DNA of 64,000 bases from positions 248,001 through 312,000 of the forward strand of contig JABUMY010000003.1 in NCBI GenBank assembly GCA_013327885.1, written 5' to 3'. The notes below the pieces were generated by a model. The model was not told where the DNA came from. It saw only the letters and a program-made list of their open reading frames with translations, and did not search any database. Every line of letters starts with the position of its first letter. Positions within the stretch are counted from its first letter, which is position 1. Position numbers and translations under genes: made by a program. The DNA is from Flavisolibacter longurius. GTDB taxonomy: Bacteria > Bacteroidota > Bacteroidia > Chitinophagales > Chitinophagaceae. Of this stretch, positions 59,005 through 64,000 are shown one piece after another.

Positions 59005-59193
59005 ATGAATAAAACCACCCTGCAATTCCGGTCGCTTGCGCAGTTGGCAGCTTTCATTGAGCATGAGGGGCTTGCTAATTTTGAACTCAATCACAACGCA
59101 CTTACTATTTGTTGTGAGATGTCAGAAGAAACAAAGGGAAAAGCAATGGCCGACTTTCAGGCTTCTGTGTATAAACAGGAGGTATTGGGCTAG
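59005..59193 (+). CDS. Small-protein family member A (62 residues)
   Basis: The 62-residue product begins MNKTTLQFRSLAQLAAFIE and continues with a strand (NFELNHNALTICCEMS) and a helix (EETKGKAMADFQASVY), a beta-alpha-beta-alpha pattern with no signal. It aligns without gaps to the products at 61257-61445 and 61474-61647 (shared LQF at 6-8, Leu14, Ala47, Phe51, Ala53). That conservation is the main evidence that it is real. The three lie around two NusG-like genes. I do not recognise the family; a regulatory partner role is only a guess. Confidence 0.7.
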   Translation: MNKTTLQFRSLAQLAAFIEHEGLANFELNHNALTICCEMSEETKGKAMADFQASVYKQEVLG

Positions 59194-59658
59194 GGGATGG
59201 AAGGTCAAATTAAACAGGATACAGCTTTTCGACATCGATCGAATTTTTCTTTGCCAAGCTTTAAGGCTACTTTTATCCATCATCCATTTCAATCGGAATC
59301 ATATTTTGCCTGGCAGATTAGGCATCAGCCTGATATTTTTTACTGCCTTTACAGGAAGGCTTTTACTATAACAATAGCCGTGAGTGGGATGTATAAAGTA
59401 TGAAGGTCTCAAGCATGCATACTAACTGTTAACAATAGTCGTTTTCCGTTTTGACTCCTGTATTGAGGAAAGAATTTCTCAGCAGATCGGTGGTTTTTGC
59501 TTTTACTACCTATCTGTACGTTTAAATATTGGTTTTCGAAAGTTGGCGTACCGTTTGCTTTTCTATCACTGGTTTTTCATAGGATATTGGATTTAAATCG
59601 GGCCACATTTCCATGTGGCCCTTTTCATTTCTTCCTTTATAAAAACTGCTTCCAATAG
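59194..59658. other. Gap with a terminator but no clear gene
   Basis: A 68-codon frame starts four bases after the previous stop (59197-59403) but has no protein-like pattern. The strong plus-strand terminator at 59600-59626 lies 400 bases beyond the last convincing plus gene, so a long 3' leader or an untranslated RNA is possible. Confidence 0.4.
59600..59626 (+). terminator. Strong rho-independent terminator
   Basis: GGGCCACAT (59600-59608), loop TTCC, ATGTGGCCC (59613-59621), then TTTTC. Perfect 9-base arms; the T tail is on the plus strand only. Confidence 0.85.
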
Positions 59659-60207
59659 TTACGCTATCACCGGTTGCCGTTGACTGTTAGTTGCTTTTTC
59701 TGTGGCTGCGTTGATGAGATCCACGTGGTTTTTGTCGACCTGGGCCACCATAGCATAACCGAGTGCCGGCAACAAAACCTTCACCGTTTTTTGATGTACT
59801 TCAATCACGGTACCCTGCTGGTGCAGGAGAGGGCCGTAGATGATCTGCACTTTATCTTCGGTTTTGATCCTTGCCTTTTCCAGCCTCACCTCTTTGTATG
59901 CTGTCAGAAAATCTTTGATGGCAATGATCTCATCATTACGGATAACAGCAGGTTTGCCCAACCAGTAGACAAAGTTGAGAACTCCGGCCGTTTTTCGCAC
60001 CTGGGCTTGCTCGGCCGGTGTAAGGCAAACAAATACATAAGAGGTGAACAGCGGCTCCTCAACCCATTTCTTACGGTCGTGCCATTGCTTTAAAACCTTG
60101 TTTAAGGGGCAATAATTCTGGATGCCTGATTTGGTAAGCAGCTGCGCTACTTTTTTTTCCCACCGGGGTTTGGTATAGACGGCATACCATACAGGAGTTG
60201 GTGTCAT
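59659..60207 (-). CDS. UpxY/NusG-like transcription antiterminator with KOW domain
   Basis: The 182-residue product has an N-terminal NGN domain (VWYAVYTKPRWEKKVAQLLT, then LFTSYVFVCLTPAEQAQVRK and GVLNFVYWLGKPAVI) and a C-terminal KOW domain (GPLLHQQGTVIEVHQKTVKV then LLPALGYAMVAQV). Such proteins bind RNA polymerase and allow read-through in surface-polysaccharide operons, where they are usually the first gene. Here no gene follows it on the same strand for 13 kb, so it would act in trans. A perfect palindrome lies just upstream (60233-60256). Confidence 0.9.
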   Translation of the reverse strand: MTPTPVWYAVYTKPRWEKKVAQLLTKSGIQNYCPLNKVLKQWHDRKKWVEEPLFTSYVFVCLTPAEQAQVRKTAGVLNFVYWLGKPAVIRNDEIIAIKDFLTAYKEVRLEKARIKTEDKVQIIYGPLLHQQGTVIEVHQKTVKVLLPALGYAMVAQVDKNHVDLINAATEKATNSQRQPVIA

Positions 60208-60232
60208 ACAAGGTTAGCGTTTAGGGTGTTAA

Positions 60233-60256
60233 TTGTCAACTTTTACAAGTTGACAA
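60233..60256. promoter_or_regulatory. Perfect palindrome upstream of the first NusG-like gene
   Basis: TTGTCAACTT (60233-60242), loop TTAC, AAGTTGACAA (60247-60256). It sits 25 bases before the start codon and could be an operator or a leader-RNA hairpin recognised by an antiterminator. There is no T run. Confidence 0.55.
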
Positions 60257-60357
60257 AAGAAAAGTGGACGTTCAGACAAGAGGAGTAAACAAAGGTTTAA
60301 TGGCAAGTGGAATCTTTTCTTAAAGCCGGTGCCTGTAAACCATTGCGTCTCCCTGGC

Positions 60358-60876
60358 CTAGCGCCATGCTAACCTGAACCTGTACGATAAACGATTGAAG
60401 CTCCGCTGGGGAAGCTCTGCCGCAACGGGTTGCTTCTCTGCCTGGTACTTATCCTCGGCAACGAGCATCATACCCAGCGACTGCAGATTGAATACCTGGC
60501 TTTCGGGGTCTGTTGCGGTTTGAATGGAAGCGCCAAAGCCGGATTTGAGCACTTTTACGTTGTGGTAATTGCTAACTGCGTGGGTGATGGTAACCATGTC
60601 TTCGTTAGTTACAACCGCTAATTGGTTAAAGCGGTACATGAAATTGATCACTCCCGGCGTTTTTTTAATATCGTAGAATTGATCAGGTGTGCAACGCACA
60701 AAAACATGAGAACTAAAAAGAGGGATTTGCAGCGATTTGTCCTGTGCTTTCCACAGAGCGCTGCTATTTTGGGAGGGGCAAAAACATTGATAACCTTTGT
60801 TGGTTAAGGCAAAAACGACTTTTCTCTCACATTGCTGCTTGGTAAATACAATATACCAGCGTTCATTTTGATTCAT
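60358..60876 (-). CDS. NusG-like paralog with degenerate KOW region
   Basis: The 172-residue product keeps the NGN domain (RWYIVFTKQQCERKVVFALT, LFSSHVFVRCTPDQFYDIKK, GVINFMYRFNQLAVV), clearly homologous to the neighbour at 59659. Its C-terminal part lacks the GPLxxxxGxV loop of a KOW domain. Only a short NLQSLGMMLVAED strand matches the end of the neighbour's KOW, followed by a basic tail. It may bind polymerase without the usual second contact, as a decoy or a specialised factor. It is an orphan like its neighbour. Confidence 0.82.
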   Translation of the reverse strand: MNQNERWYIVFTKQQCERKVVFALTNKGYQCFCPSQNSSALWKAQDKSLQIPLFSSHVFVRCTPDQFYDIKKTPGVINFMYRFNQLAVVTNEDMVTITHAVSNYHNVKVLKSGFGASIQTATDPESQVFNLQSLGMMLVAEDKYQAEKQPVAAELPQRSFNRLSYRFRLAWR

Positions 60877-61256
60877 ACAGGGTTCGTTTTACATGAGTAA
60901 ATCAATCCATTGACAATCATCGGTTTGATAACGGTTTTTTATCAATCCGATCACTGTTTCTTTTCATGTAACAAAGCAAAGTGAAATGAAGAGAGGTTTT
61001 TCAGTATCGACAGACAAAGGAAGGGTCTCATCATTTTCAGTAGGGTTTCTCTGGACTCAATCTTGCAATAAATATACCAAGCCAATTTTTAAGATGCAAA
61101 CCGACCGTTTGACAGTTGTGTATTCAATGTGGACAAGAAATGGGACACAAACTGGTTTTACGGGTAGAAAAGGCCAGGAATGCGCAGTACATTGGTTAAA
61201 AAAGTATTAGTGTGTCTTTTCTACATTATTTATTTTTCGCCCTACAAATTTTGCAG
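60877..61256. other. Divergent gap between NusG-like paralog and small-protein gene
   Basis: It contains the imperfect palindrome at 60921-60949. A 74-codon plus-strand frame (60986-61210) shows no protein-like pattern. Promoters for both flanking genes should lie here. Confidence 0.4.
60921..60949. promoter_or_regulatory. Imperfect palindrome upstream of the second NusG-like gene
   Basis: CGGTTTGATAA (60921-60931) and TTATCAATCCG (60939-60949) pair over 10 of 11 bases around a 7-base loop, about 45 bases before the start. Its sequence differs from the palindrome of the first paralog but the placement is parallel. Confidence 0.45.
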
Positions 61257-61445
61257 ATGCAATCCACTATCCTCCAATTTCCAACCCTTACTGACCTGGC
61301 ACTTTATGCCCGGGAAGTCGCCGGTAAAGGCTTCCAGATTAACACACAGAACCTGACATTGAAATCGAAACTCTCTGATGAAGAGATCATATTGGCCCGG
61401 CAGCAGTTTCGTGCACAAATGATAGAAAAGCCTCAGTACAACTGA
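61257..61445 (+). CDS. Small-protein family member B (62 residues)
   Basis: The 62-residue product starts MQSTILQFPTLTDLALYAR and continues KGFQINTQNLTLKSKLSDEE then IILARQQFRAQM. It has the same length and strand-helix-strand-helix order as member A, aligning without gaps (about 17 of 62 positions identical by eye). The ATG at 61257 is chosen because it matches member A's start; an upstream in-frame codon at 61212 would add a hydrophobic leader. It is tail-to-tail with member C. Confidence 0.7.
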   Translation: MQSTILQFPTLTDLALYAREVAGKGFQINTQNLTLKSKLSDEEIILARQQFRAQMIEKPQYN

Positions 61446-61473
61446 GAGAATAGTACCGCCGCGCAAAAAGAAA

Positions 61474-61647
61474 CTACAACACCACTTTGGCAGCAAAATT
61501 CAAACAGGCCATTTGAATGTCTTTCTCTGTCAGTTCACAGATCAGGAGATTTTTCTTTGCCAGCACAACAACATTCAGTGCATGCACGCTTACTTTAAAC
61601 CGCCACAGAGAAAAGATCGAATTGAATTGTAAGGTGGTTTTTAGCAT
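61474..61647 (-). CDS. Small-protein family member C (57 residues)
   Basis: The 57-codon minus-strand frame reads MLKTTLQFNSIFSLWRFKVS, then a strand-rich middle (NVVVLAKKNLLICELTEKD) and IQMACLNFAAKVVL. It shares with member A, without gaps, KTTLQF, Leu14, Phe17, Asn25, the Cys-Glu pair at 37-38, Glu41, Ala47, Phe51, Ala53 and Val55. It is convergent with member B, with 28 bases between their ends. The matching start and spacing argue against chance. Function unknown. Confidence 0.65.
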   Translation of the reverse strand: MLKTTLQFNSIFSLWRFKVSVHALNVVVLAKKNLLICELTEKDIQMACLNFAAKVVL

Positions 61648-62165: not shown

Positions 62166-62495
62166 ATGGGAGCAACAAAAGCATATGAGTTTAGTGTAAA
62201 GGAAAACAGGTTGGCCAAATATGCAAAAGCACTGGCGCATCCGGCGCGGATCGCCATTCTGAAATTCCTGGCCAACAAAGCGGCCTGCCAGTGCGGCGAC
62301 ATTGTTGAAGAGATTCCACTTTCGCAAAGCACCGTTTCGCAACATTTAAAAGAACTGAAAGAAGCAGGGCTGATCAAAGGAGAGATCGATGGCGCCAAAG
62401 TGTGTTACTGCATCGATGAAAAGGAGTGGAAGGCAGCGCAGGCCTGGATCAATAACCTGTTTGATAGTTATAAGGGAGGCAGCAATTGCTGCTGA
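62166..62495 (+). CDS. arsR: ArsR/SmtB family metalloregulator
   Basis: The 109-residue winged-helix repressor has LAHPARIAILKFLANKAACQ, then CGDIVEEIPLSQSTVSQHLK (recognition helix) and LKEAGLIKGEIDGAKVCYCI (wing). Cysteines that could bind As(III) are Cys41/43, Cys80/82 and the terminal Cys108/109. Pairs rather than the classic ELCVC motif suggest an atypical metal site. It heads an operon with arsM, a GNAT and arsC and probably represses it until arsenite binds. Confidence 0.93.
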   Translation: MGATKAYEFSVKENRLAKYAKALAHPARIAILKFLANKAACQCGDIVEEIPLSQSTVSQHLKELKEAGLIKGEIDGAKVCYCIDEKEWKAAQAWINNLFDSYKGGSNCC

Positions 62496-62513
62496 CTTTT
62501 TTTTGATCGTATT

Positions 62514-62531
62514 CATCGTAATATTTCGATA
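62514..62531. promoter_or_regulatory. Second candidate ArsR operator, before arsM
   Basis: CATCGTAATATTTCGATA matches the site before arsR at 16 of 18 positions and ends 18 bases before the arsM ATG. It implies that arsM also has its own ArsR-controlled promoter. Confidence 0.65.
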
Positions 62532-62549
62532 ACCTAAAAACAAATAACA

Positions 62550-63398
62550 ATGGAAACAAGAGACAATGTAAAAGAACTGGTAAGGCAGAAATACAGCGAG
62601 ATTGCCTTGCAGGACAAAGACACCAACCAAAGCTCCTGTTGTGGTGCTGGCGGGTGCTCTACCGAAGTGTATAACATAATGGCCGACGATTACACCCAGC
62701 TTGATGGGTACAATCCGGATGCTGACCTGGGTTTGGGTTGCGGTTTGCCAACACAGTTTGCCAAAATTAAAAAAGGCGATGTGGTGATTGACCTGGGCAG
62801 CGGCGCCGGTAACGATGCGTTCATTGCCAGGCATGAAACCGGCGAATCGGGTAAGGTCATTGGTATTGACTTTACACCTGCCATGATTGAAAAAGCAAGA
62901 CAGAACGCAGAAGTCCGCGGCTTTAACAACGTTGAGTTCAGGCAGGGCGACATTGAAAAAATGCCGGTTACAGCCAATGCGGCTGACGTAATTGTAAGCA
63001 ATTGCGTACTGAATCTTGTTCCGAACAAAGAGGCGGTTATCAACGAGATCTACAGGGTCTTGAAACCGGGTGGGCACTTCTCTATTTCCGATATTGTTTT
63101 AGAAGGCGAACTGCCAACGGAGATCAAAGAAGCTGCTGAAATGTATGCCGGTTGCGTTGCCGGTGCCATTCAAAAACAAACCTATTTACATTTGATCGAA
63201 GCAGCCGGCTTTACAAATATGACGGTGCAGAAAGACAAAGCCATCATTATCCCCGATGATATTTTAAAGCAATACCTTTCGGAAGAAAAGTTGGCAGCTT
63301 TCAAACAATCAGGAACAGGCATCAGAAGCATAACCGTGTATGCTGAGAAACCAACAGAAAGCGGCAAAACCTGCTGCGGTCCGGATTGTTGCAATTAA
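62550..63398 (+). CDS. arsM: Arsenite methyltransferase
   Basis: The 282-residue enzyme transfers methyl groups from S-adenosylmethionine to As(III). SAM-binding motif: VVIDLGSGAGNDAFIARHET. The three cysteines of ArsM are present: Cys64 in GLGCGLP, Cys152 in IVSNCVLNLV and Cys202 in MYAGCVAGAI. Extra pairs occur near the N-terminus (SSCCGAGGC) and at the C-terminus (TCCGPDCC), likely arsenic-binding. It follows arsR and precedes an acetyltransferase gene by 12 bases. Confidence 0.95.
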   Translation: METRDNVKELVRQKYSEIALQDKDTNQSSCCGAGGCSTEVYNIMADDYTQLDGYNPDADLGLGCGLPTQFAKIKKGDVVIDLGSGAGNDAFIARHETGESGKVIGIDFTPAMIEKARQNAEVRGFNNVEFRQGDIEKMPVTANAADVIVSNCVLNLVPNKEAVINEIYRVLKPGGHFSISDIVLEGELPTEIKEAAEMYAGCVAGAIQKQTYLHLIEAAGFTNMTVQKDKAIIIPDDILKQYLSEEKLAAFKQSGTGIRSITVYAEKPTESGKTCCGPDCCN

Positions 63399-63410
63399 GC
63401 TTTACCTAAA

Positions 63411-63863
63411 ATGACGAACACAAAATTTAGAGCCACCATCAGCAAAGCGGATCCTGGTCAGAGAGGAGCGATCATTAAATTGCTCCAGGCAGAAAGCCTG
63501 CCGGTAGAAGATTTGCCGGCTTCTTTGAATGATTTCTTCGTGGCAAAAGATGCCGGAAATGTCATTGGGGCGATTGGCTTAGAGCGTTATGGTGATGGTG
63601 GCCTTTTGCGTTCCCTGGTTGTTGACAAAGCGTATCGAAATAAAAATATTGCTTCCTTACTGGTGCAGGCATTGGAAAAAAGCGCAGCAGCCATGGGAAT
63701 TACCTCCATGTATCTTCTTACTGAAACAGCATCACAATACTTTACCAATAAAGGCTATCAAACATGCAGCAGAGACGAAGTGCCGGCTGAGCTGAAAGCA
63801 TCTTCTGAATTCAGTCATGTTTGTCCGGCTAGCGCTATTGTGATGAAAAAGCAACTCAACTGA
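63411..63863 (+). CDS. arsN2: GNAT acetyltransferase, ArsN2-like
   Basis: The 150-residue single-domain N-acetyltransferase has the acetyl-CoA loop [20 protein letters not shown], preceded by [18 protein letters not shown], and ends with [20 protein letters not shown]. Operon placement between arsM and arsC is typical of ArsN-type enzymes. Relatives acetylate organoarsenicals such as arsinothricin or glufosinate analogues. The exact substrate here is inferred, not shown. Confidence 0.85.
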
Positions 63864-63867
63864 TCCA

Positions 63868-64000
63868 ATGAAAAAAATATTAGTACTCTGCACAGGTAAC
63901 AGTTGCAGAAGCCAGATAGCGGAAGGTTACCTAAAACAGTTTGCTGCAGGGAAAGCTGATGTTTACAGTGCTGGTGTGGAAACACATGGCGTCAACCCGA
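63868..64000 (+). CDS. arsC: LMW-PTP-type arsenate reductase, cut by window end
   Basis: The visible 44 codons read [20 protein letters not shown] and continue [28 protein letters not shown] is the CX5R phosphate-binding loop of low-molecular-weight phosphatase-like ArsC, which reduces arsenate with thioredoxin. It starts four bases after the acetyltransferase stop codon, so it belongs to the ars operon. The rest lies beyond the window. Confidence 0.9.

Follow-up and report, generated by a model that had tools for sequence, protein, structure and literature searches.

A genus-restricted family of small proteins with a common predicted fold, three members of which surround an orphan pair of UpxY-type genes

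Introduction

In the stretch of 64,000 nucleotides analysed here (hereafter the window; bases 248001-312000 of contig C33), three tiny genes surround two NusG-like genes. Do these small genes encode partners of the neighbouring antiterminators, or do they belong to a repeat gene family with no relation to them? A sequence-only reading of the locus had advanced both possibilities. The first one invites comparison with Bacteroides, where, according to one study, UpxZ represses non-adjacent capsule operons through UpxY (PMC7315117), and where two B. fragilis UpxYs without UpxZ are described in a second source as possibly RfaH-like (PMC7593976).

Results

Three small genes under purifying selection

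The open reading frame (ORF) listing of the window agrees with the proposed positions and sizes (62, 62 and 57 codons) of the three genes. A (59005..59193, plus strand, 62 aa), B (61257..61445, plus strand, 62 aa) and C (61474..61647, minus strand, 57 aa) all start with ATG, and in-frame GTG starts lie upstream of the ATG of both plus-strand ORFs (59005 and 61257). As had been claimed, the three proteins align without gaps from Met1, with M1, T4, L6, Q7, F8, L14, A47, F51 and A53 identical in all of them. A profile of 82 family members, built without the window rows and without those of the orthologous F. longurius locus, was compared with the 1201 six-frame ORFs of at least 30 residues in the window and matched A, B (thus a member of the same family as A and C) and C only, with E-values of 4e-15, 2e-18 and 6e-17, respectively; since these 82 members had originally been found by window-seeded profiles, this test is not fully independent.

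Identity to the orthologues in F. longurius (BT320), our comparison genome for selection and synteny, reached 60, 57 and 88 percent for A, B and C, C being the most conserved of the three, and more than half of the changes fell at third codon positions. The pN/pS values in this comparison, with synonymous sites at or close to saturation, were 0.25/0.95 for A, 0.26/0.70 for B and 0.08/0.62 for C. Each of the three genes is under purifying selection, none showing the non-coding-like substitution pattern named beforehand as evidence against them, and these values together with the profile matches rule out non-coding or chance ORFs.

An orphan pair of UpxY-type genes

Both NusG-like genes reported between the small genes were found. 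UpxY1 (59659..60207, minus strand, 182 aa) has both an NGN and a KOW domain and is a full UpxY-type antiterminator, its score of 141.7 bits against NF033644 passing the curated cut-off of 100 bits. UpxY2 (60358..60876, minus strand, 172 aa) is UpxY-like and stays below the cut-off (71.2 bits): its alignment spans positions 1-109 of the 164 of the profile and covers the NGN domain, whereas the KOW part is gapped and gave no KOW match. In 18 genomes of the genus we collected 60 UpxY/NusG matches, 44 of which were left after 16 housekeeping-like ones had been removed by hand; one row (L121) of alignment A6 is not a UpxY gene. As ten of the 60 matches stop at or before profile position 124, KOW-gapped forms recur in the genus.

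The earlier observation that no polysaccharide operon follows the pair also held: judged by eye from the gene order within the window, the next downstream ORFs are oppositely oriented and UpxY1 is not at the head of such an operon. The pair resembles the orphan UpxY genes of B. fragilis, which are without UpxZ and may act like RfaH (PMC7593976), but differs from them in that one of its members has a KOW gap. In the leader of UpxY2, blocks at 60877-61110 are conserved in all three known versions of the locus (window, F. longurius and a contig, L133, described below), and an imperfect inverted repeat at 60919-60951 is common to the window and L133 and absent from F. longurius. A role of the leader block as a target in trans was considered and rejected, its own site being the only one in the genome at up to 3 mismatches. 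Beyond the small genes, the region 62166-64000 (plus strand) may hold an arsenic cluster: its ORFs resemble an ArsR-type regulator, a methyltransferase rich in cysteines, an acetyltransferase and the first part of a small phosphatase.

A many-copy family almost confined to one genus

A profile made from the three proteins found 12 places in the window's genome (E up to 1), and a 38-row profile (A2) found 13 (E up to 0.001). A2 matched 16 of the 18 genus genomes, with 0 to 14 places in each, and, in the taxonomic family, 4 of 117 genomes from 2 of 100 genera; the 88-row profile A3 matched two of the 296 genomes of a phylum-wide sample, both from the window's genus. Nearly all of the many homologs thus belong to one genus. 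Our working set comprised 89 places, of which 87 belong to the genus and two to genome G107, and the tree and A3 were based on 88 rows, one 17-residue remnant having been left out. The small genes are a genus-restricted, many-copy family in the GTDB genus of Flavisolibacter and Cnuella species, with a median length of 63 residues.

Known families offered little help. Pfam yielded scattered weak matches (best E 0.0024, KH_DEAH11, in 2 of 38 members), and no convincing match emerged from NCBIfam (best E 0.0059), PHROGs (0.0018) or PADLOC (0.0085, Cas2b), the best hit in each concerning one of 88 members, nor from a comparison with PDB, whose closest sequence (E 0.22) was that of an unrelated chain. 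The literature searched, which covered few subscription journals, held no report on ferredoxin-like small proteins of Chitinophagaceae or on small proteins of Flavisolibacter. This is an unclassified, real small-protein family with a common predicted fold.

In the 88-row tree, A, B and C belong to three separate clades and each is next to its orthologue from F. longurius; several orthologue groups are common to more than one species. The genes group in 75 clusters, ten of which hold 2-3 copies, at scattered positions and among diverse neighbours. Such a pattern could result from expansion without any regulatory role, through duplication combined with a weak or general benefit or within an unrecognised genetic element. 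We consider this unlikely, though worth serious attention, given the purifying selection on all three window copies and the orthologue groups held in common between species. Moreover, searches with copies of the C type found no relative on viral contigs (query, the F. longurius copy of C) or on plasmids (query, C itself). A mobile element was rejected as well, since most matches between flanks came from overlapping pieces of one locus, from orthologous loci or from a neighbouring gene. To look for a version of the site without the small genes, we traced the neighbouring gene of 351 aa: close orthologues were confined to F. longurius (84 percent) and G007 (61 percent), and in the latter, on a contig of 4370 bases, another ORF comes directly after it.

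A predicted ferredoxin-like fold with a probably variable surface

A beta-alpha-beta-alpha order had been proposed for the small proteins. AlphaFold2 gave beta-alpha-beta-beta-alpha-beta instead, for A (strands 3-7, 26-29, 34-38 and 54-59, helices 11-21 and 41-50; pLDDT 88.7, pTM 0.69) as well as for C, with the same order of elements (pLDDT 90.1, pTM 0.70). The order in these models fits the ferredoxin-like fold class. Foldseek matches were weak and generic (best E 0.029 in PDB and 0.0045 among viral structures), HMA metallochaperones and PII-like proteins, which have the same strand and helix order, standing at the top of the PDB list.

Among the 88 rows, F8 is present in 88, A47 in 87, A53 in 80, F17 in 78, L6 in 70 and L14 in 69, and position 51 is Y or F in 76; most other positions vary and the surface-type ones are mixed. 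These residue counts suggest that the core has been kept and the surface diversified. The metal-binding cysteine pair that follows strand 1 in HMA metallochaperones has no conserved counterpart in the small proteins (positions 8-20 in 88 rows), which have a cysteine at position 37 in 25 of 88 cases and at position 39 in 21. RNA recognition motifs (RRMs) have an RNP consensus with aromatic residues, and we used it for comparison: the 88 rows show no aromatic pattern of this kind on strand 3, positions 34-39 reading T, L/I/V, T, G/C/A, mixed and F/L/C. The median net charge of the 88 members is 0 and a hydrophobic stretch of 19 residues occurs in five. With mostly hydrophobic residues at the conserved positions, variation among paralogues elsewhere and no catalytic or metal-binding residue shared across the 88 rows, the small proteins are most likely partner-binding modulators. 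Against an adaptor role, the surface variability may reflect mere drift in a fast-evolving family, and the hydrophobic stretch of some members also counts against it.

Most copies lie far from antiterminator genes

If the small proteins were general partners of UpxY, their genes should tend to sit near UpxY or NusG genes. Among the 87 genus copies, six have one of the 60 UpxY/NusG matches at a distance of up to 10 kb, and all six belong to the locus in the window and its counterpart in F. longurius, one orthologous locus in two species; the other 81 have no such match within 10 kb, some of their contigs being shorter than that distance. Ten of the 87 are within 50 kb of the 44 non-housekeeping UpxY-like genes, 40 of which lack a small gene at up to 5 kb. 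Likewise, among the best 80 of 443 loci with relatives of UpxY1, small genes were present at two, L133 and L134 (= F. longurius), and at none of the other 78 (flanks of up to 4 kb). Because most copies are far from antiterminators, the small proteins are not dedicated antiterminator partners, and the figures of 6/87 and 2 of the best 80 rule out general partnership with UpxY. The part of the sequence-only reading that proposed a repeat gene family with no relation to UpxY thus stood, and the part that made the small proteins antitermination partners as a rule fell, by the very outcome (homologs without a tendency to lie near NusG-like genes) that this reading had named as its refutation.

A narrower version of the partnership concerns this locus alone: the small proteins might bind UpxY1, the shortened UpxY2 or both, and tune RNA polymerase in trans in a UpxZ-like manner. 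The concentration of three copies in 2.6 kb around two UpxY genes speaks for it, as does the conservation of this arrangement in F. longurius and, up to the end of the contig, in L133 (SEBV01000049.1), whose 3748 bases contain C, B, UpxY2, UpxY1 (91 percent) and the short RNA described below, and stop before the expected A. L133 is titled a gammaproteobacterial MAG; since it carries a Flavisolibacter-type module, it looks mis-binned. However, A, B and C do not form one clade, the great majority of copies and of UpxY-like genes are apart from each other, and other small genes of both species keep their neighbourhoods too, so that the retention of the module in two species and a third contig is not special evidence.

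A copy from the clade of C, L042, also favours this narrower version. Its start lies 83 bases past a gene for a bacterial sugar transferase, at the end of a run of polysaccharide genes of ~33 kb that is headed by a UpxY gene at C11:283045 and in which all ORFs of at least 90 residues are co-directional, except one of 116 residues. We rejected a general link between this clade and polysaccharide loci, the evidence from its six members outside the module being mixed: L042 and L082 are among polysaccharide genes, L083, L085 and L086 are not as far as the scanned neighbours go, and for L102 one neighbour was scanned.

The likeness to the Bacteroides UpxY/UpxZ system is confined to the locus, where UpxY1 is a UpxY by the curated cut-off and the small genes adjoin UpxY genes. 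In contrast to that system, in which upxZ adjoins upxY where a capsule operon begins, no capsule operon follows here and most small genes are distant from UpxY. Known UpxZ proteins are larger and different; A to C have no convincing Pfam or NCBIfam match. Taking both sides together, we consider a UpxZ-like module at this locus quite improbable.

Neighbours and upstream boxes of the small genes

Genes with receiver domains were more frequent among close neighbours (7 of 70 within 150 bp vs. 19 of 583 farther away, p 0.015), as were receiver-only genes (6 of 70 vs. 11 of 583, p 0.006), both p values being uncorrected and coming from a test chosen after the neighbour clusters had been seen, with an excess that concerns a minority of copies. 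A TAnnTTTG box, which we take to resemble the Bacteroidota promoter box, occurs within 120 bp upstream of 19 of the 89 copies vs. 4 of 89 on the reverse strand, the other 70 having none in the 120 bp searched; part of the family has its own promoter-like box. Two more families of small ORFs accompany some copies. One, of ~80-110 aa, is found 4 to 1369 bp away at five loci (L060:5178-5513, L041:11843-12085, L056:4279-4569, L087:5287-5538 and L046:3324-3632), and the other, of ~90 aa, 0 to 113 bp away at four (L093:4739-5011, L095:4376-4648, L111:5270-5527 and L076:4074-4334).

A short RNA family in the same stretch

The alignment of the three versions of the locus revealed an invariant block beyond UpxY1, on the opposite strand. 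It belongs to a putative RNA of ~57 bases (59571..59627, plus strand; 78.6 bits) made of a 24-base block followed by a terminator hairpin (stem 59600-59621) and a T run, block and hairpin being common to the copies of this family. The exact block occurs five times in the window's genome (the other copies are at C1:57190, 83991 and 178402 and at C11:415370), with no occurrence of its reversed control, and 3 of the 12 predicted pairs change on both sides among nine sequences. A TAT-TTTG-CTC box directly precedes the block in the majority of 42 distinct aligned copies (two are off-pattern), with little common sequence upstream of it; the copies of the window, L133 and F. longurius modules lack it. 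The TATnTTTGnCTC box, present before most other RNA copies, is absent from the window copy.

A covariance model gave 82 matches of at least 49.9 bits in 17 of the 18 genus genomes. In a phylum sample, 47 of 198 genomes matched at E up to 0.01; six had matches of at least 60 bits, all within the window's taxonomic family, and most of the other matches, of ~25-30 bits, are taken as chance. The window gave no Rfam match at the gathering score, a single chance-level match (E 0.13) lying elsewhere in the stretch. The 17-base core of the RNA was not found in the literature searched, and a search for small RNAs, most of it outside subscription journals, turned up, among the papers listed, no description recognisable as this one.

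Could the small proteins act together with this RNA? Six of 73 genus clusters (the 75 minus two in G107), representing four independent loci, have a strong RNA copy at a distance of at most 3 kb, against 0.42 expected under uniform placement. This proximity is a lead only, because the uniform null ignores the crowding of both into intergenic space and because the two are not distributed alike among genomes: G008 carries 12 small genes but no strong RNA, G004 and G017 carry four strong RNAs each but no small gene, and strong RNAs are also present in further genera of the family, in which A3 finds no small protein. The neutral median charge and the lack of an aromatic pattern in strand 3 argue against it too, and we consider joint action with the RNA very improbable.

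Discussion

Which function would best account for these genes? With about even confidence, we regard them as lineage-restricted, ferredoxin-like small proteins that have multiplied in the genus, each likely being a modulator or adaptor of its own partner. Each copy would most likely be a small protein acting on a partner protein of its own, perhaps a signalling protein, and would be neither an enzyme nor a common UpxY subunit. The three copies of the window come from three branches of the family that have been retained around the orphan UpxY pair. A bolder extension, in which the family consists of genus-private, partner-specific regulators on one re-tooled scaffold and the three copies form here a regulatory island with the short RNA and a trans-acting antiterminator pair, one of them KOW-depleted, is very unlikely in our judgement.

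A many-copy family of ~60 residues that is selected and folded, and for which four profile libraries hold no convincing match, is easily missed. A second candidate regulator that has escaped annotation is the RNA, which is multi-copy across the taxonomic family, has a covarying terminator and is preceded in most copies by a promoter-like box. The small-protein family would illustrate the way in which a single genus assembles its private set of small modulators and, if their partners were found, it would provide a natural series in which one scaffold serves many specificities.
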